Assembly: GCF_000807675.2 (NCBI RefSeq)
Contig: NZ_CP019962.1
Coordinates: 2,170,001-2,234,000, forward strand
Length of the DNA: 64,000 nucleotides
Direction: 5' to 3'
From: Eubacterium limosum
Lineage (GTDB): Bacteria > Bacillota > Clostridia > Eubacteriales > Eubacteriaceae
The notes below the pieces were generated by a model. The model saw only the letters and a list, made by a program, of their open reading frames with translations. It made no database searches and had not been told where the DNA came from. Position 1 is the stretch's first letter. The number at the start of each line of letters is the position of its first letter. This document shows, one piece after another, positions 3,772 through 10,269 of the stretch. A program made the position numbers and the translations under genes.

Positions 3772-3796
3772 AAGTGAAAAAATTCGCAAGAAAAGC

Positions 3797-3824
3797 TTGC
3801 AAAATTTTAAAATAGTAGTATAAT
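3797..3824 (+). promoter_or_regulatory. Promoter of the transhydrogenase operon
   Basis: TTGCAA (3797-3802), 16-base spacer, TATAAT (3819-3824). The predicted leader of about 160 bases contains the hairpin at 3876-3901. Confidence 0.6.
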
Positions 3825-3875
3825 AAAATCAATAAGGATTTATACTATAGAATAAGAAAATATTACCGCAAAACA

Positions 3876-3901
3876 TTCCCGTTTTATCCTTAAAACGGGA
3901 A
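3876..3901 (+). other. Hairpin in operon leader
   Basis: An 11-bp perfect stem (TTCCCGTTTTA with its complement) around a TCCT loop, followed by a weak AAATTTCTTT run. It could be a leaky terminator, an attenuator or a transcript-stabilising structure between the promoter and the first gene. Confidence 0.5.
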
Positions 3902-3989
3902 AATTTCTTTAAAAAAATTGGATACATTGTGCAAGTGGAAGAAATTGAGAAAGCTTGTTAAATCAGGAAGAAAAAAGTAAGGAGTAATT

Positions 3990-4508
3990 ATGAATCACGA
4001 ACACCATCATGATCATCACTGTGGCTGCGGCTGTCAGGATGAACCCAAATTTCCAGAATTAGATGCAGTTCTGGACGCGTACGCCGATGTGGCAGGAAGC
4101 CTGATTACCATTCTGCAGAAGGCTCAGGAAACTTACGGCTATTTGTCTCCGGACTTAATGTTGTATATTTCTCGTGAAACAGACATTCCAGTAGCGAAGA
4201 TATACGGTGTTGCAACTTTTTATGCCCAATTCCGTATGAATCCTGTCGGTAAGCATCTGATCATGCTATGTCAGGGAACAGCCTGCCATGTTAATGGATC
4301 TTCGATGATTGAGGAGGCCGTAGTAGAGTATCTTGGAATTAACGAAGGGGAAACCACTGAGGATGGCCTTTTCACTTTAGAGAATGTTGCATGCCTGGGC
4401 TGCTGCTCTTTATCGCCGGTTATGATGATTGACGGAGAAACCTATGGGCAGCTTACAAAAGATAAGGTAGTTAACATTTTAACAGAACTGAAGGAACAGG
4501 AGGCGTAG
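3990..4508 (+). CDS. NuoE-like [2Fe-2S] subunit of bifurcating transhydrogenase (Stn/HydC type)
   Basis: A 172-residue thioredoxin-fold NuoE family protein. The [2Fe-2S] ligands are the C94-x4-C99 and C135-x3-C139 pairs. Its role would be to pass electrons between the flavin subunit and the rest of the complex. The N-terminus is extended by a His/Cys-rich segment (residues 3-15: seven His and three Cys), not typical of NuoE and possibly metal binding. A strong AAGGAG site precedes ATG 3990. The next gene starts 3 bases after the stop. The order NuoE-NuoF-fusion matches acetogen Stn-type transhydrogenases and [FeFe] hydrogenases (HydC-HydB-HydA), but no hydrogenase H-cluster domain follows. 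Confidence 0.88.
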   Translation: MNHEHHHDHHCGCGCQDEPKFPELDAVLDAYADVAGSLITILQKAQETYGYLSPDLMLYISRETDIPVAKIYGVATFYAQFRMNPVGKHLIMLCQGTACHVNGSSMIEEAVVEYLGINEGETTEDGLFTLENVACLGCCSLSPVMMIDGETYGQLTKDKVVNILTELKEQEA

Positions 4509-4511
4509 GCG

Positions 4512-6269
4512 ATGGAAAACTATAAAGTAATCATTGGACAGGGAAGCTGCGGGATCGCTGCTGGCGCCGCAAAGGTGGAAGAAGCCTTTAAAGATCAGAT
4601 TGCTGCAAAGAGTCTGAGCATTGATCTTGAAAAAACAGGCTGTATCGGCACCTGTTATCTGGAACCCATTGTGGATGTGGTTGATCCTTCCGGCAGTAAG
4701 ATTACCTATGTCAATGTAAATACCGCTGATGTTGAACGCATTGTGGATGAACATATCCTTGGTCAGAAAAATATTACAGATCTGCAGATGGCTGCTCAGG
4801 ACAGAGAAATGATTGCCAAGCAAAAGCGCGTGGTACTTCAGAACTGTGGTATCATTGATCCTGAACGTATTGAGGATTATCTGGCTGTAGAGGGCTATAA
4901 AGCCGCTGAGAAGGCCATTAAGATGACGCCTGAGGAAATCATTGAAACGGTCAAAATCGCTGGATTAGGGGGCCGTGGTGGTGCAGGATTCCCAACCTGG
5001 TTTAAATGGAACGAGGCTCATAAGGCAAAGGGGGATGTCAAATATTTGATCTGTAACGCTGACGAAGGTGACCCTGGCGCATTTATGGACCGGTCCGTTC
5101 TCGAAAGTGATCCTCATGCGCTTATTGAAGGCATGATCATTGCCGCTAAGGCTATTGGGGCCAGCCAGGGGGTTGTCTATGTCCGCGCCGAGTATCCGCT
5201 GGCCATCAAGCGTCTTGAAAATGCCATTGGACAGGCTAGAGAAAAAGGATACCTGGGCGAAAATATTTTTGGTTCAGCCTTCAGCTTTGATCTGAGAATA
5301 AAAGCCGGCGCCGGTGCTTTTGTCTGCGGTGAAGAAACCGCGTTAATCGCATCACTTGAAGGCGAACGCGGGATGCCCCGCCTCAAGCCGCCATTCCCGG
5401 CACAGAAGGGCTACTGGGCAAAACCGACCAATATTAATAACGTAGAAACCTATGCAAACGTGCCGTGGATCTTCAGAAACTCCGGTGAAACCTATGGGCA
5501 GCTCGGAAATGAAAACTCCAAGGGGACCAAAGTATTTGCCTTAACCGGTAAAATCAAAAAGGGCGGCCTGGTTGAAATTCCAATGGGATTAACCCTTCGT
5601 GATGTTATTTATGATATTGGCGGCGGCATTAAAAACGATAAGGCCTTTAAGGCTGTTCAGATGGGCGGGCCATCCGGAGGATGTGTTCCGGCTGAGCTGG
5701 TGGATACGGTTATCGACTACCCTTCCATTATTAAAACCGGCGCGATCATGGGCTCCGGCGGGATGGTTGTTATGGATGAAACCACCTGTATGGTTGATAT
5801 GGCGCGTTTCTTCCTGGATTTCACCCGGAAAGAATCCTGTGGTAAATGCAACTACTGCCGCATTGGGACCATGCGTATGCTGGAAATTTTGACACGTATC
5901 ACAGAAGGCGATGGACGCGACGGTGACATCGAGCTTCTCGAAGAGCTCTGCCTCAAGGTTAAGGAGGGTTCTATGTGTGGTCTTGGCCAGACAGCACCGA
6001 ACCCTGTTCTCACCACACTACGTTATTTCAGAAACGAGTATGAAGATCATATTTACAAGCATAAGTGTACAGCTCACAGCTGTAAGGCCCTGATTACCTA
6101 CAGCATTGATGAAGAAAAATGCGTTGGCTGTACCCGATGTGCTAAAAACTGCCCTGTTGAGGCCATTTCAGGCGCACCTAAGAAAGTTCATGTTATCGAT
6201 CAGGAAAAATGTATTAAGTGCGGCAAATGTGCCAGCGTTTGTAAATTTGATGCGGTAATCGTGGATTAG
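4512..6269 (+). CDS. NuoF-like NADH/FMN subunit of bifurcating transhydrogenase (Stn/HydB type)
   Basis: 585 residues. An N-terminal thioredoxin-like region carries Cys44 and Cys48 (TGCIGTC). It is followed by the FMN/NADH fold with GLGGRGGAGFP at 151-161, the SLBB region, the [4Fe-4S] site SCGKCNYC (442-449) with SMCG (487-490), and a C-terminal 2[4Fe-4S] ferredoxin domain (CVGCTRCAKNCP from 537, CIKCGKCASVC from 567). This is the HydB/StnB architecture, where the FMN is the proposed bifurcation centre. It would oxidise or reduce NADH in the cytoplasm and exchange electrons with ferredoxin. It is translationally coupled to both neighbours. Confidence 0.9.
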   Translation: MENYKVIIGQGSCGIAAGAAKVEEAFKDQIAAKSLSIDLEKTGCIGTCYLEPIVDVVDPSGSKITYVNVNTADVERIVDEHILGQKNITDLQMAAQDREMIAKQKRVVLQNCGIIDPERIEDYLAVEGYKAAEKAIKMTPEEIIETVKIAGLGGRGGAGFPTWFKWNEAHKAKGDVKYLICNADEGDPGAFMDRSVLESDPHALIEGMIIAAKAIGASQGVVYVRAEYPLAIKRLENAIGQAREKGYLGENIFGSAFSFDLRIKAGAGAFVCGEETALIASLEGERGMPRLKPPFPAQKGYWAKPTNINNVETYANVPWIFRNSGETYGQLGNENSKGTKVFALTGKIKKGGLVEIPMGLTLRDVIYDIGGGIKNDKAFKAVQMGGPSGGCVPAELVDTVIDYPSIIKTGAIMGSGGMVVMDETTCMVDMARFFLDFTRKESCGKCNYCRIGTMRMLEILTRITEGDGRDGDIELLEELCLKVKEGSMCGLGQTAPNPVLTTLRYFRNEYEDHIYKHKCTAHSCKALITYSIDEEKCVGCTRCAKNCPVEAISGAPKKVHVIDQEKCIKCGKCASVCKFDAVIVD

Positions 6270-6284
6270 GAAGGAGTGAGGGAC

Positions 6285-9200
6285 ATGAAGAAATTAAGAA
6301 TTAACATTAACGGAAAAGAAGTAACGGGTTTTGCAGAACAGACCATTTTAGATGTTGCCCGCGAAAACGGTATTGATATCCCGACTCTTTGCTATGACGA
6401 ACGCACCGAGATTTATGGCTCCTGCGGCCTCTGCATGGTAGAAGTTGAAGGTAATCCAAAGCTCTTGAAAGCCTGCGCAACGCCCATTGCTGAGGGAATG
6501 GTTATCACGACTAAATCTGACAGAGTGTTGGAATCCAGAAAAACAAACCTGGAGCTTCTGTTATCCAAGCATATCGGCGATTGTGTGGCACCGTGTCAGC
6601 TGGAATGTCCGGGACAGACAGACTGTCAGGGATACGTTGGGCTTATAGCAAACGGGGAATATGAAGAAGCCATCAAGCTGATCAAGGATCGTCTGCCTTT
6701 GCCGGCATCTATTGGACGTGTTTGTCCGCACCCCTGCGAAAAGGCCTGCCGACGCGGCTTAGTAGATGAGCCTGTTTCGATTTTATGGCTCAAGCGATTT
6801 GCGGCGGATCTGGACATCGACAAAGGAATGTTTATGCCTGAAATCGCACCGGATACCCACAAAAGCATTGGCGTTATCGGCGGCGGCCCTGGCGGACTGA
6901 CTGCAGCTTATTTTCTGAGAAAAGCGGGACATGCGGTCACCATATATGAAGCGATGCCTAAAGCCGGTGGAATGCTGCGCTATGGGATTCCTGAATATCG
7001 TCTGCCCAAAACCGTTCTGGATGAGGAAATCAAGCTGATAGAAGATATGGGCGTCACCATTAAGACAGGGGTACGCATTGGCGCGGATCTGCCCTTTGAG
7101 ACCCTGAGAAAACAGCATGACGCCATGTATGTTGCCATTGGCGCCTGGACCAGCAGCGGACTGCGCTGTGAAGGCGTCGACGCTGATGGGGTCATTGGCG
7201 GGATTGAACTGCTCAGACAGATTGTCAACAATGAACCGGCAAACCTGGGTGACAGAGTCGCCATTGTCGGCGGCGGGAATACTGCTATGGATGCCTGCAG
7301 AAGCGCAGTACGCTTAGGTGCAAAGGAAGTTTATAATGTGTATCGCCGTACAGTAGCGGAAATGCCGGCTGAACAGGAAGAGATCGAGGAAGCGCAGGAA
7401 GAAGGCGTTGTCTTTAAGAACCTGTGCAATCCGATAGAAATTATTAAAGATGAAAATGGACATGTCAAGCAGATGCTGCTTCAGAAAATGGAACTGGGTG
7501 AACCGGATGCCAGTGGCCGCCGCCGTCCTGTTCCCATTGAAGGAGAAACGGAACGGATTGATGTGGACACTGTTATTCTGGCCATTGGCCAGGGAATAGA
7601 CCCTGAAGGTATGGACGGGCTTGAACTGACGAAGTTCAATACAGTTGTCGCAGATGAAGAAACCTTTACGACGAACCTTGAGGGCGTCTTTGCAGGCGGT
7701 GACTGTGCCAATGACGGCGCTTCTATTGCGATCCGTGCCATTGGAGAAGCTAAAAAGGCAGTCAGCTTTATTAACGGATATCTGCAGGGACATGAAATTC
7801 GTTATCGCAAACCCTATTATGTCACCAGAGATGATATCGACGCAGATTATCTGGAAGGCAAAAAGAAATATAAGCGGCCTCCAATGGCGCATCTTACACC
7901 AGAGGAACGTAAAAATACCTTTGAAGAAATCGTCAAGGGTTATACACCTGAACAGGCCAGAGAAGAAGCGTCACGCTGTCTGGAATGCGGCTGTCACGAT
8001 TACTTTGAATGTAAGCTGGTAGATTACGCCAATCAGTATGATGTGGCACCTGAACGCTTTGACGGTGAAAATGAAGAACTGATTTTTGAAGACGACCATC
8101 CATTTATTGTACGCAACCCTAATAAATGTATTCTCTGTGGCCGCTGTGTACGTGCCTGTGATGAGGTTGTTGGAGTGACCGCTCTTGGCCTGATGAATCG
8201 TGGCTTTGATACTGTCGTTGTACCGTCCCTTGGCGGAAAACTGGCTGATTCCGGCTGTATTTCCTGTGGAACCTGTATTTCTGTATGCCCAACCGGAGCG
8301 CTGGGAGAACGGGCGAGAGGCTTCAAGAACGTGCCGACCGATACAAAGAAGACACTAACAACCTGCGGATACTGTGGCGCCGGCTGCCAAATGGTAGTTG
8401 AGACCATGGGCGACACCATCGTGAAAGCAGTGCCAACCGATATCACTGCTGCGAATAATGAAGGCGTGATGTGTGGACGCGGACGTTTTGGAACTAACCA
8501 GGTTCAGTTGGGCGATCGCCTGACCAAGCCGTTAATCCGAAATGCAAAGGGACAACTGGAGGAAACAGACTGGTATGACGCTTTTGTCGCAATCGCCAAA
8601 AAAGCACAGACCATTTCTGCAAGAAATGGAGCAGAGGCTTTAAAAGTTGCTGTTTCACCCAAATATACTACTGAAGAGATTGCCATGATTAAAAAGCTGG
8701 CAGATAGTCTGAGAGCAGAAACATTCTCCTTCAGCAACACCGCTCACGGCGAAGATTCCGTACTGCCGTGCAGCGGCGAAATCCACAGTATGGATGAAGT
8801 TCTTTCAGCAGACGCTATACTGGTGCTGGGGTGCCTGCGGATAAACAACCCTGTGCTGCGCTATAAGCTCAGCCAGGCTTCTAAACGCGGTGCCTCAATC
8901 TTCTTCATCAATGCAGCTGAAGATGGGATGAATCGCATTGGGGATGAATTTACAACCGAATATGACGACTTGGATTTCCTGGGCGAAATTACAAAATATG
9001 TCCTTGAAAATCGGAAGGCAGCAGACACCCCCGATGGTTTAGAAGATTTGAAGGATTCTCTGGCAGCGCTTGAGATCAGCGAAGAATCTGAAATGATCGG
9101 GAATGCACTGGTGAACGCGAAACACCCGATGGTGGTTCTTGGCGGTAAATATATCACGGAAGAAGCTTCTGCTCTGGCAGCAGATATTGCGGTCCTCTTA

Positions 9201-9791
9201 GGAAAGAGCGATGGACCGAGACGCGGCGTTTTCAGAGTTGAACAGAAAAATAACAGCAAGGCACTTGGTCTGCTGGGTGTTACTCAGACACCTGAAGTAC
9301 TGGACAATGCAAAAGGGATTATGATTTTTGGCGAAGACCCCAACGCGGATTTATCCGGTTATGATTTTATCATGGTTCAGGATACACACCTGACCCTAGC
9401 TGCCCAAAAGGCAGACGTTGTTCTTCCGGCACTGGCGTTCCCTGAAGTTGCAGGAACCTTTATCAATACTGAAGGCAGAATGCAGCGTGTCACACCGGCG
9501 GTCTCTCGCGCACTGCCCTATACCAACATTGGTATGGTAGTGGAAATTGGAAAAATCCTGGGTGAAAAGCCTGGTTCTACCTGTACCGGCCTGATCCGCA
9601 GAACGCTCCAGGCAGAGATACCTGAGCTGATGAATGTTGAGATTGGCAGTCAGATCCATAGCGGCAGATGTGAAGGCTCAGCTCATCTGGTACCGATGAA
9701 AAAGGATGGCTTCCTGTTTGAAGAAATCCCATATACGGACTTCCTGATGAATGAAATCACCGGTGAAATTAAAAAAGTAACACGCAAATAA
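6285..9791 (+). CDS. Giant fusion: [2Fe-2S] / GltD-type NADPH-FAD / ferredoxin / FDH-like subunit (Stn-type)
   Basis: 1168 residues from ATG 6285, which lies 8 bases after AAGGAG; an upstream GTG at 6276 overlaps that site. Domains in order: plant-type [2Fe-2S] (C36, C47, C50, C64); GltD/NfnB-type module with cysteine clusters (C100-C114, C147-C155), FAD motif VIGGGPGG (197-204), NAD(P) motif IVGGGNT (327-333) and YRR (353-355) typical of NADPH binding; 2[4Fe-4S] ferredoxin (CILCGRCVRAC from 615; CISCGTCISVCP from 658); then a NuoG/formate-dehydrogenase-like part with CGYCGAGC (694-701) and Cys730. The last domain lacks a Sec/Cys catalytic loop and is shortened, so it should not oxidise formate. 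Best explanation: the NADPH-handling subunit of an Stn-type NADH/ferredoxin:NADP transhydrogenase. Confidence 0.85.
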   Translation: MKKLRININGKEVTGFAEQTILDVARENGIDIPTLCYDERTEIYGSCGLCMVEVEGNPKLLKACATPIAEGMVITTKSDRVLESRKTNLELLLSKHIGDCVAPCQLECPGQTDCQGYVGLIANGEYEEAIKLIKDRLPLPASIGRVCPHPCEKACRRGLVDEPVSILWLKRFAADLDIDKGMFMPEIAPDTHKSIGVIGGGPGGLTAAYFLRKAGHAVTIYEAMPKAGGMLRYGIPEYRLPKTVLDEEIKLIEDMGVTIKTGVRIGADLPFETLRKQHDAMYVAIGAWTSSGLRCEGVDADGVIGGIELLRQIVNNEPANLGDRVAIVGGGNTAMDACRSAVRLGAKEVYNVYRRTVAEMPAEQEEIEEAQEEGVVFKNLCNPIEIIKDENGHVKQMLLQKMELGEPDASGRRRPVPIEGETERIDVDTVILAIGQGIDPEGMDGLELTKFNTVVADEETFTTNLEGVFAGGDCANDGASIAIRAIGEAKKAVSFINGYLQGHEIRYRKPYYVTRDDIDADYLEGKKKYKRPPMAHLTPEERKNTFEEIVKGYTPEQAREEASRCLECGCHDYFECKLVDYANQYDVAPERFDGENEELIFEDDHPFIVRNPNKCILCGRCVRACDEVVGVTALGLMNRGFDTVVVPSLGGKLADSGCISCGTCISVCPTGALGERARGFKNVPTDTKKTLTTCGYCGAGCQMVVETMGDTIVKAVPTDITAANNEGVMCGRGRFGTNQVQLGDRLTKPLIRNAKGQLEETDWYDAFVAIAKKAQTISARNGAEALKVAVSPKYTTEEIAMIKKLADSLRAETFSFSNTAHGEDSVLPCSGEIHSMDEVLSADAILVLGCLRINNPVLRYKLSQASKRGASIFFINAAEDGMNRIGDEFTTEYDDLDFLGEITKYVLENRKAADTPDGLEDLKDSLAALEISEESEMIGNALVNAKHPMVVLGGKYITEEASALAADIAVLLGKSDGPRRGVFRVEQKNNSKALGLLGVTQTPEVLDNAKGIMIFGEDPNADLSGYDFIMVQDTHLTLAAQKADVVLPALAFPEVAGTFINTEGRMQRVTPAVSRALPYTNIGMVVEIGKILGEKPGSTCTGLIRRTLQAEIPELMNVEIGSQIHSGRCEGSAHLVPMKKDGFLFEEIPYTDFLMNEITGEIKKVTRK

Positions 9792-9795
9792 AAAA

Positions 9796-9832
9796 GAAGA
9801 GCTTCCTGTTTCAGGAAGCTCTTCGTATTTTT
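9796..9832. terminator. Bidirectional terminator of convergent genes
   Basis: A 13-bp perfect stem with a TTT loop (9796-9824), flanked by A5 on one side and a T-rich run on the other. It ends the transhydrogenase operon. The last codons and the TGA (9811-9813) of the opposing gene lie inside the hairpin. Confidence 0.9.
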
Positions 9833-10269
9833 TGAGGCCGTTTCTGGGGCCTGCGTCTGTGTTTTGAATTAAGATCCTTTGCAAAGATAAGGCGGAGCGC
9901 CATAAGGATCATTATCAGCGTTAAAGGGGCATATACAAGCTTTTCGATGGGATTGTCAGACATGAAGTTGCCGATGATATTTAGCAGATAATAGAGGCTC
10001 ATGATCCAGAGAATGCTGTCCGCGCTTTTTCGTAAGCCTTTCATGGGAAGATAGTTTAGCTTGAGCAGTATACCAAAAATAAACAGCAGAATGAAGAAAA
10101 TAGCAATCCATTCAGAAATTACGACTGACGCTTTATCAGTGATGGTGGTGTCCCAGATAATGTCGGGTGATACCACTCCAAATAATACCAAAATATGAAT
10201 GATCAGTAAAACCAAAAGGGCAATCAGTAAAACATTTCCAATTCCCCGCGAGTTAATCTTAAGTTTCAT
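9811..10269 (-). CDS. Hypothetical four-helix membrane protein
   Basis: 152 residues, start ATG 10269 after AAAGGGG. Four hydrophobic segments are visible (about 10-32, 52-72, 85-105, 118-135), ending in a very basic tail rich in Arg, Lys and Gln. I recognise no family. It is convergent to the transhydrogenase operon and shares its terminator. Likely a cytoplasmic-membrane protein; function unknown. Confidence 0.7.
   Translation of the reverse strand: MKLKINSRGIGNVLLIALLVLLIIHILVLFGVVSPDIIWDTTITDKASVVISEWIAIFFILLFIFGILLKLNYLPMKGLRKSADSILWIMSLYYLLNIIGNFMSDNPIEKLVYAPLTLIMILMALRLIFAKDLNSKHRRRPQKRPQKIRRAS

Follow-up and report, generated by a model that had tools for sequence, protein, structure and literature searches.

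A predicted Stn-type electron-bifurcating transhydrogenase in Eubacterium limosum, and GltD-formate dehydrogenase fusions among its relatives

Three adjoining genes of Eubacterium limosum encode proteins with features of transhydrogenases, hydrogenases and formate dehydrogenases, which raises the question of what enzyme they form. The genes, here called stnA, stnB and stnC, lie in a 64,000-nucleotide stretch of contig NZ_CP019962.1 (assembly GCF_000807675.2, positions 2,170,001 to 2,234,000), hereafter the window. A sequence-only reading had described them as NuoE-like, NuoF-like and GltD/NfnB fusion genes with gaps of 3 and 15 bases, forming a Stn-type transhydrogenase operon and not a hydrogenase. 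The open reading frames (ORFs) agree with this layout, and the domains, PDB matches, key residues and a published assignment agree with the identification. The operon almost certainly encodes an Stn-type (Sporomusa-type Nfn) electron-bifurcating transhydrogenase, an activity assigned by homology.

The domain composition is that of an Stn complex. Pfam lists one family for StnA, a single 2Fe-2S_thioredx domain. Twelve families are listed for StnB, including NADH_4Fe-4S, C-terminal two-cluster ferredoxin domains and Complex1_51K, the flavin mononucleotide (FMN)/NADH domain that corresponds to the NADH site previously proposed in the NuoF-like subunit. The 18 families listed for StnC include Fer2_4, Fer4_20, Pyr_redox_2, Fer4_Nqo3, Molybdop_Fe4S4 and Molybdopterin. 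The proposed YRR motif occupies StnC residues 353-355, and the several ferredoxin domains of the first reading were recovered by Pfam in StnB and StnC. Its statement that no H-cluster or nickel site is present also stands, with no iron- or nickel-hydrogenase families among the Pfam families of the three proteins. That reading did not include the degenerate NuoG/formate-dehydrogenase-like domain that makes up about 40% of StnC (residue 688 to the end). StnC has the fusion expected of this subunit, a [2Fe-2S] domain followed by GltD/NfnB-like and NuoG/FdhF-like parts in a protein of about 1170 amino acids (aa).

All three subunits have the same two top-scoring PDB entries, 9bov and 8oh5. StnC matches them with 1035 and 973 bits, respectively, from residue 4 to about 1100 (4-1101 in 8oh5_C); the corresponding scores are 900 and 903 bits for StnB and 193 and 182 bits for StnA. 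Chance similarity is not an issue, because the E-values of the best matches are 0 to 5e-56. The comparison with Stn and HydABC structures that had been proposed as a check was made through these sequence matches, and it favours Stn: StnB scores 903 and 900 bits against the Stn build, versus 737 bits for the nearest [NiFe] hydrogenase chain (7t2r) and 709 and 661 bits for HydB chains (7q4v and 8a6t). The outcome that would have spoken against the first reading, a position nearer to hydrogenases or formate dehydrogenases, was looked for by sequence and not observed. The 9bov/9bp5 complex has the same build and gives the top PDB score for StnC and StnA; we take it to be Caldicellulosiruptor NfnABC. 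At 1178 residues, its chain is exactly as long as three StnC proteins that Table 1 of PMC7483475 gives for Caldicellulosiruptor. A literature search directed at this complex yielded no paper on it. The entries 8oh5 and 8oh9 are two states of the Sporomusa ovata Stn complex (PMC10482914), which shares its subunits, domain order and gene order with the window (PMC7483475, PMC10482914). In alignments, K170, C114, R239 and the spacing of the cluster cysteines are also the same.

These residues matter for activity in S. ovata StnC: it drops severely in K170A and K170C, falls from 1.08 to 0.03 U/mg in R239A and is halved in C114A (PMC10482914). StnC of the window has K170, C114, Y117 and R239 at the S. 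ovata residue numbers. We found 148 loci encoding a StnC relative and used 80 of them for conservation counts. None of the 33 StnC positions checked (these four and 29 others) varies in any of the 80 relatives. All 70 aligned StnA rows retain the four [2Fe-2S] cysteines (one partial row dropped; nine of the 80 loci had no StnA match, and in those stnC begins at most 1.9 kb from the start of the locus). In StnB, after six partial rows were dropped and with one locus lacking a match, the eight cysteines of the C-terminal ferredoxin domain are kept in 71 of 73 rows. The two rows without all eight are B' proteins of the second clusters described below (L045 and L080). Other StnB departures are a C449 to Tyr change in L019 and a sequence cut at the N terminus in L008.

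The rest of the genome also fits the assignment. Based on the presence of genes for CO dehydrogenase/acetyl-CoA synthase and formyl-tetrahydrofolate synthetase, the host is very likely an acetogen. The only NfnB-type Fer4_20 domains in its genome are those of StnC and a YgfK-type protein, and a search of the genome for PntB found none. Table 2 of Kremp et al. 2020 (PMC7483475) lists Stn as present and Nfn as absent in E. limosum ATCC 8486 (Ga0213646_111405) and Eubacterium callanderi KIST612 (ELI_3306), which agrees with our Fer4_20 and PntB searches. These belong to the same species group, and theirs is very likely the same gene or a near copy; StnC of the window is 96% identical to that of E. 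callanderi FD. Because this table already lists Stn for E. limosum and E. callanderi, the Stn of the window is a known enzyme in its species group.

The mechanism proposed for S. ovata (PMC10482914), including the electron path, the gating and the reaction, can be transferred to the window by homology; what our own analysis shows is the set of components, the order in which they are encoded, the key residues and cysteines, and the outcome of the searches for NfnB-type domains and PntB. Hydride from NADPH would be passed to flavin adenine dinucleotide (FAD) in the GltD-like part of StnC, and single electrons would then travel through StnC clusters C7 to C3 and via B1 to the FMN of StnB. StnA and StnB could split the electrons between NAD+, reduced at FMN, and ferredoxin, reduced at the C-terminal 2x[4Fe-4S] domain of StnB, with movement of StnA gating the split. 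The reaction would be reversible, and an acetogen without NfnB or PntB would mostly run it from NADH and reduced ferredoxin to NADPH. We infer this NADPH-forming direction for the cell, and a tetramer of StnABC trimers for the complex.

Several points weigh against the assignment. The third-ranked PDB entry, 9n5u (chains named NfnA, NfnB and NfnC), which we take to be a Thermococcus complex, is also close to the window proteins (StnC 644, StnB 805 and StnA 175 bits). StnC matches [FeFe]-hydrogenase models, though far below their cut-offs, with 200.4 of 765 bits for FeFe_hydrog_A6. The identity of S. ovata StnC to that of E. limosum is moderate, at about 43% (PMC7483475 Table 2), and we found no report of a purified Eubacterium Stn in the cited Stn literature. 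Finally, NsoABC of Thermococcus litoralis has the same composition and is described as an NADPH-dependent sulfur oxidoreductase (PMC7483475).

This last point introduces the least improbable of the rivals, in which the complex would be an NADPH-dependent reductase of sulfur or another acceptor, built on the same chassis. K170, C114, the StnA cluster and the StnB ferredoxin domain all match the Stn that is proven to bifurcate, and on these grounds we rejected a Nso-type sulfur reductase as very improbable. Kremp et al. suggest, moreover, that Nso itself may be a transhydrogenase (PMC7483475).

A formate dehydrogenase, in which the molybdopterin-type C-terminal domain of StnC would oxidize formate and pass electrons to NAD(P)+, is suggested by the Molybdop_Fe4S4 and Molybdopterin matches above Pfam cut-offs and by the deposition of the S. 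ovata chain as 'Formate dehydrogenase-O, major subunit'. However, StnC reaches only 135.4 bits with the Fdh-alpha model (TIGR01591, NCBIfam; cut-off 666.25), and in alignment with live formate dehydrogenase domains it lacks the active-site segment with selenocysteine (Sec) or Cys followed by His, as well as the cofactor-binding cap domain. The cysteine form of the motif, C-[AS]-R-x-C-H, occurs in none of the 80 StnC relatives; the scan sees this form because a TGA would end the frame, yet 79 of the 80 frames are 1140-1256 aa long. In addition, S. ovata Stn did not oxidize formate with methyl viologen (PMC7483475). The chance of this reading is negligible, and we consider it ruled out by sequence.

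Equally negligible is an electron-bifurcating [FeFe] or [NiFe] hydrogenase of the HydABC kind, to which the sub-threshold model matches of StnC and the 48% and 56% identity of StnA and StnB to HydC and HydB of the same genome could point. HydABC hydrogenases share their bifurcating core with StnA/StnB, whereas Stn lacks an H-cluster subunit and has the NADPH-binding StnC as its input module. Neither Fe_hyd_lg_C nor nickel-hydrogenase families occur in the three operon proteins, and the similarity of StnC to HydA of the same genome is confined to two iron-sulfur segments (StnC residues 1-100 and 576-677). We therefore rejected this reading, as the operon has no H-cluster subunit. The genome does encode a HydABC-type hydrogenase near 2.53 Mb, with a large subunit that passes the group A6 model, and all four Fe_hyd_lg_C matches of the genome lie outside the window. 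A plain NfnAB, which shares the GltD-like NADPH domain with StnC, was rejected because lysine (K170) stands where NfnB has glutamate at the C7 ligand position; Stn also differs in bifurcating at the FMN of StnB, as published for S. ovata, and no NfnA-like gene is found among the operon ORFs, the rest of the genome having been searched for the NfnB-type domain and not for NfnA.

The relatives of this Stn-type transhydrogenase include a variant in which the third domain of StnC differs. Of the 71 loci in which all three genes were matched, 69 keep the A-B-C order within 250 bp. The exceptions, L045 and L080, come from two metagenome-assembled genomes (MAGs) and have their best A and B matches in a second cluster. 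In both, stnC is directly preceded by a stnB cut off at the contig end, then comes a homoserine-dehydrogenase-like gene and then a second set, A'B'C'. The second stnAB-like set with C' lies in two near-identical MAG loci, L105 and L106 (Table 1). C' is 1375 aa long (1351 aa in L106) with one in-frame TGA read as selenocysteine in the motif DHCARLUHSS. It scores 894.5 bits with Fdh-alpha, above the cut-off, and retains the GltD part with K170, C114 and R239. B' is 531 aa long and lacks the C-terminal ferredoxin domain. A SECIS-like (selenocysteine insertion sequence-like) match at the C' TGA is below the gathering score (34.7 versus 63 bits). A tRNA-Sec gene follows C' (72.5 bits, gathering score 47), after which L105 encodes SelA (579.8 bits, cut-off 267.9) and an ORF read by eye as SelB-like.

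A 300-residue piece of the fused formate dehydrogenase (Fdh) domain was used to search the 148 relatives of genome G001, a set that counts G001 itself and G002, and it matched in 95 genomes. Among the matches listed, five are long frames of 1260-1380 aa, in G001 (99% identity), G002 (98%), G430 (71%), G424 (63%) and G472 (54%). All five are GltD fusions with an Fdh domain in place of the degenerate one of StnC, so that at least five of the 148 genomes encode one. Also among the matches listed, stand-alone formate dehydrogenase frames of about 900 aa reach up to 66% identity to the Fdh piece, compared with 29-39% for StnC-sized frames. A further candidate, a 1254-aa frame of G113 among the matches listed for a 398-genome phylum sample, was rejected because it has no GltD part.

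The Sec or Cys active site is kept in three of the five fusions. In G430, whose C protein scores 903.8 bits with Fdh-alpha, the active-site residue is cysteine, and the complete A-B-C operon there could possibly encode a formate-linked bifurcating complex. In G424 the active-site residue is Asn, and in G472 the motif is altered and the cap domain is missing. A midpoint-rooted tree was built from 39 rows, comprising the window, the five fusions and 33 of the 80 relatives. It places the front ends of the fusions together as a single group (100/98 support) nested among the sampled StnC sequences; the branching order is provisional, because the root is a midpoint root only and four long branches were flagged. 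The simplest reading would be that an Fdh domain was swapped onto the StnC front end and then decayed in two lines. An assembly error is unlikely, as G430, G424 and G472 are separate genomes.

We give somewhat less than an even chance to the idea that the third domain of the StnC chassis can be exchanged, with the NADPH-binding GltD/NuoG front end joined in some uncultured relatives to a live Sec/Cys formate dehydrogenase. StnA would accompany this fusion, as would, in one genome, a full StnB with its ferredoxin domain. Formate could then be interconverted with NADPH, NADH and ferredoxin by such a complex. On this view, the site accepts and loses domains, the dead domain in StnC of the window represents its silent state, and two of the genomes hold decaying intermediates. 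Literature searches aimed at a GltD-Fdh fusion found no description of one, a weak absence given their poor coverage of subscription papers. Passages of PMC5736913 (on Chloroflexi) describe Hyl-type and other formate dehydrogenases as well as Nfn, and not this fusion.

The features of the window and of the loci discussed are collected in Table 1. A GTG at position 6276 is the first possible start of stnC (6276-9791, 1171 aa), but a GGAGTGA stretch precedes the ATG at 6285, and the 15-base gap holds for the ATG start. The hairpin downstream of stnC is likely a two-way terminator shared with the convergent ORF, and the one in the stnA leader may be either a terminator of the upstream unit or a leader structure; the scan gave 10 terminator-like sites versus a shuffle mean of 6.5 (sd 3.1), a total close to that of shuffled sequence. 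The window and E. callanderi FD have ilvB, ilvN, the EamA-type gene and the downstream ORF in common. Among the 80 loci with available flanks, the ilvB, ilvN and EamA neighbourhood occurs only in E. callanderi, and for this reason it is uninformative on function.

Table 1. Coordinates of the stn operon, its flanks, and related loci in the same and other genomes
Feature	Sequence	Position	Strand	Description
Leader upstream of stnA	window	3772-3989		218 bases, after EamA-type gene (stop 3771)
11-bp hairpin in stnA leader	window	3876..3901	+	consensus scan, weak
stnA	window	3990..4508	+	172 aa; NuoE/HydC-like; one [2Fe-2S] (C94, C99, C135, C139)
stnB	window	4512..6269	+	585 aa; NuoF/HydB-like
stnB FMN/NADH domain	window	4950-5465	+
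stnB C-terminal 2x[4Fe-4S] ferredoxin domain	window	about 6102-6266	+
stnC	window	6285..9791	+	1168 aa from ATG start
N-terminal [2Fe-2S] domain	StnC	aa 1-101
GltD/NfnB-like FAD and NADPH domain	StnC	aa 102-565		domain limits from the S. ovata literature
Further [4Fe-4S] sites	StnC	aa 565-730
Degenerate NuoG/FdhF-like domain	StnC	about aa 688-1168
13-bp perfect hairpin	window	9796..9824	.	T-rich stretches on both strands; consensus scan
Convergent ORF after stnC	window	9811-10269	-	end overlapped by the 13-bp hairpin
Second stnAB-like set with C'	L105	3472-9728	-	MAG locus
Second stnAB-like set with C'	L106	5521-11756	+	MAG locus
G430 operon A-B-C	L147	2866-9241	+	full StnA, full 585-aa StnB with ferredoxin domain, 1356-aa C
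G424 fusion	L148	frame from 7699	-
G472 fusion	L149	frame from 9399	-
YgfK-type gene	L095	3636-6632	+	E. limosum genome near 4.006 Mb
Aldehyde-type gene cluster	L092	1257-6917		E. limosum genome near 3.42 Mb
NuoF FMN domain gene (RnfC)	L001	994-2343	-	E. limosum genome
NuoF FMN domain gene (PduS/RnfC-like)	L005	1468-2802	+	E. limosum genome

Other regions of the E. limosum genome encode proteins with related domains. The YgfK-type protein (998 aa, 1382.7 bits, cut-off 835.3) has neighbours read as amidohydrolase, hydantoinase and xanthine-dehydrogenase-like. In L092, an aldehyde:ferredoxin-oxidoreductase-like gene (233 bits, model cut-off 868) adjoins NuoE-like, NuoF-like (with a ferredoxin tail) and NuoG-N-terminus-like genes, the product of the last having 9mqx as its best PDB match; the cluster resembles an aldehyde enzyme built around the bifurcating core that Stn also has. 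NuoF FMN domains also occur in a protein read as RnfC beside a RnfD-like ORF, and in one read as PduS/RnfC-like beside an aldehyde-dehydrogenase-like ORF, for which a guess of PrdC was dropped.

Stn allows acetogens without Nfn to link NADH and ferredoxin to NADPH, and was found in 20 of 48 acetogen genomes (PMC7483475). This makes it relevant to modelling and engineering gas-fermenting strains of Eubacterium. The copy in the window only confirms a published assignment, and the Fdh fusions matter more. In S. ovata, clusters C1 and C2 of the dead formate dehydrogenase domain of StnC are needed for assembly and are not thought to carry electrons (PMC10482914). A formate dehydrogenase on the Stn chassis, if true, would be a natural test of why StnC retains its dead Fdh domain.

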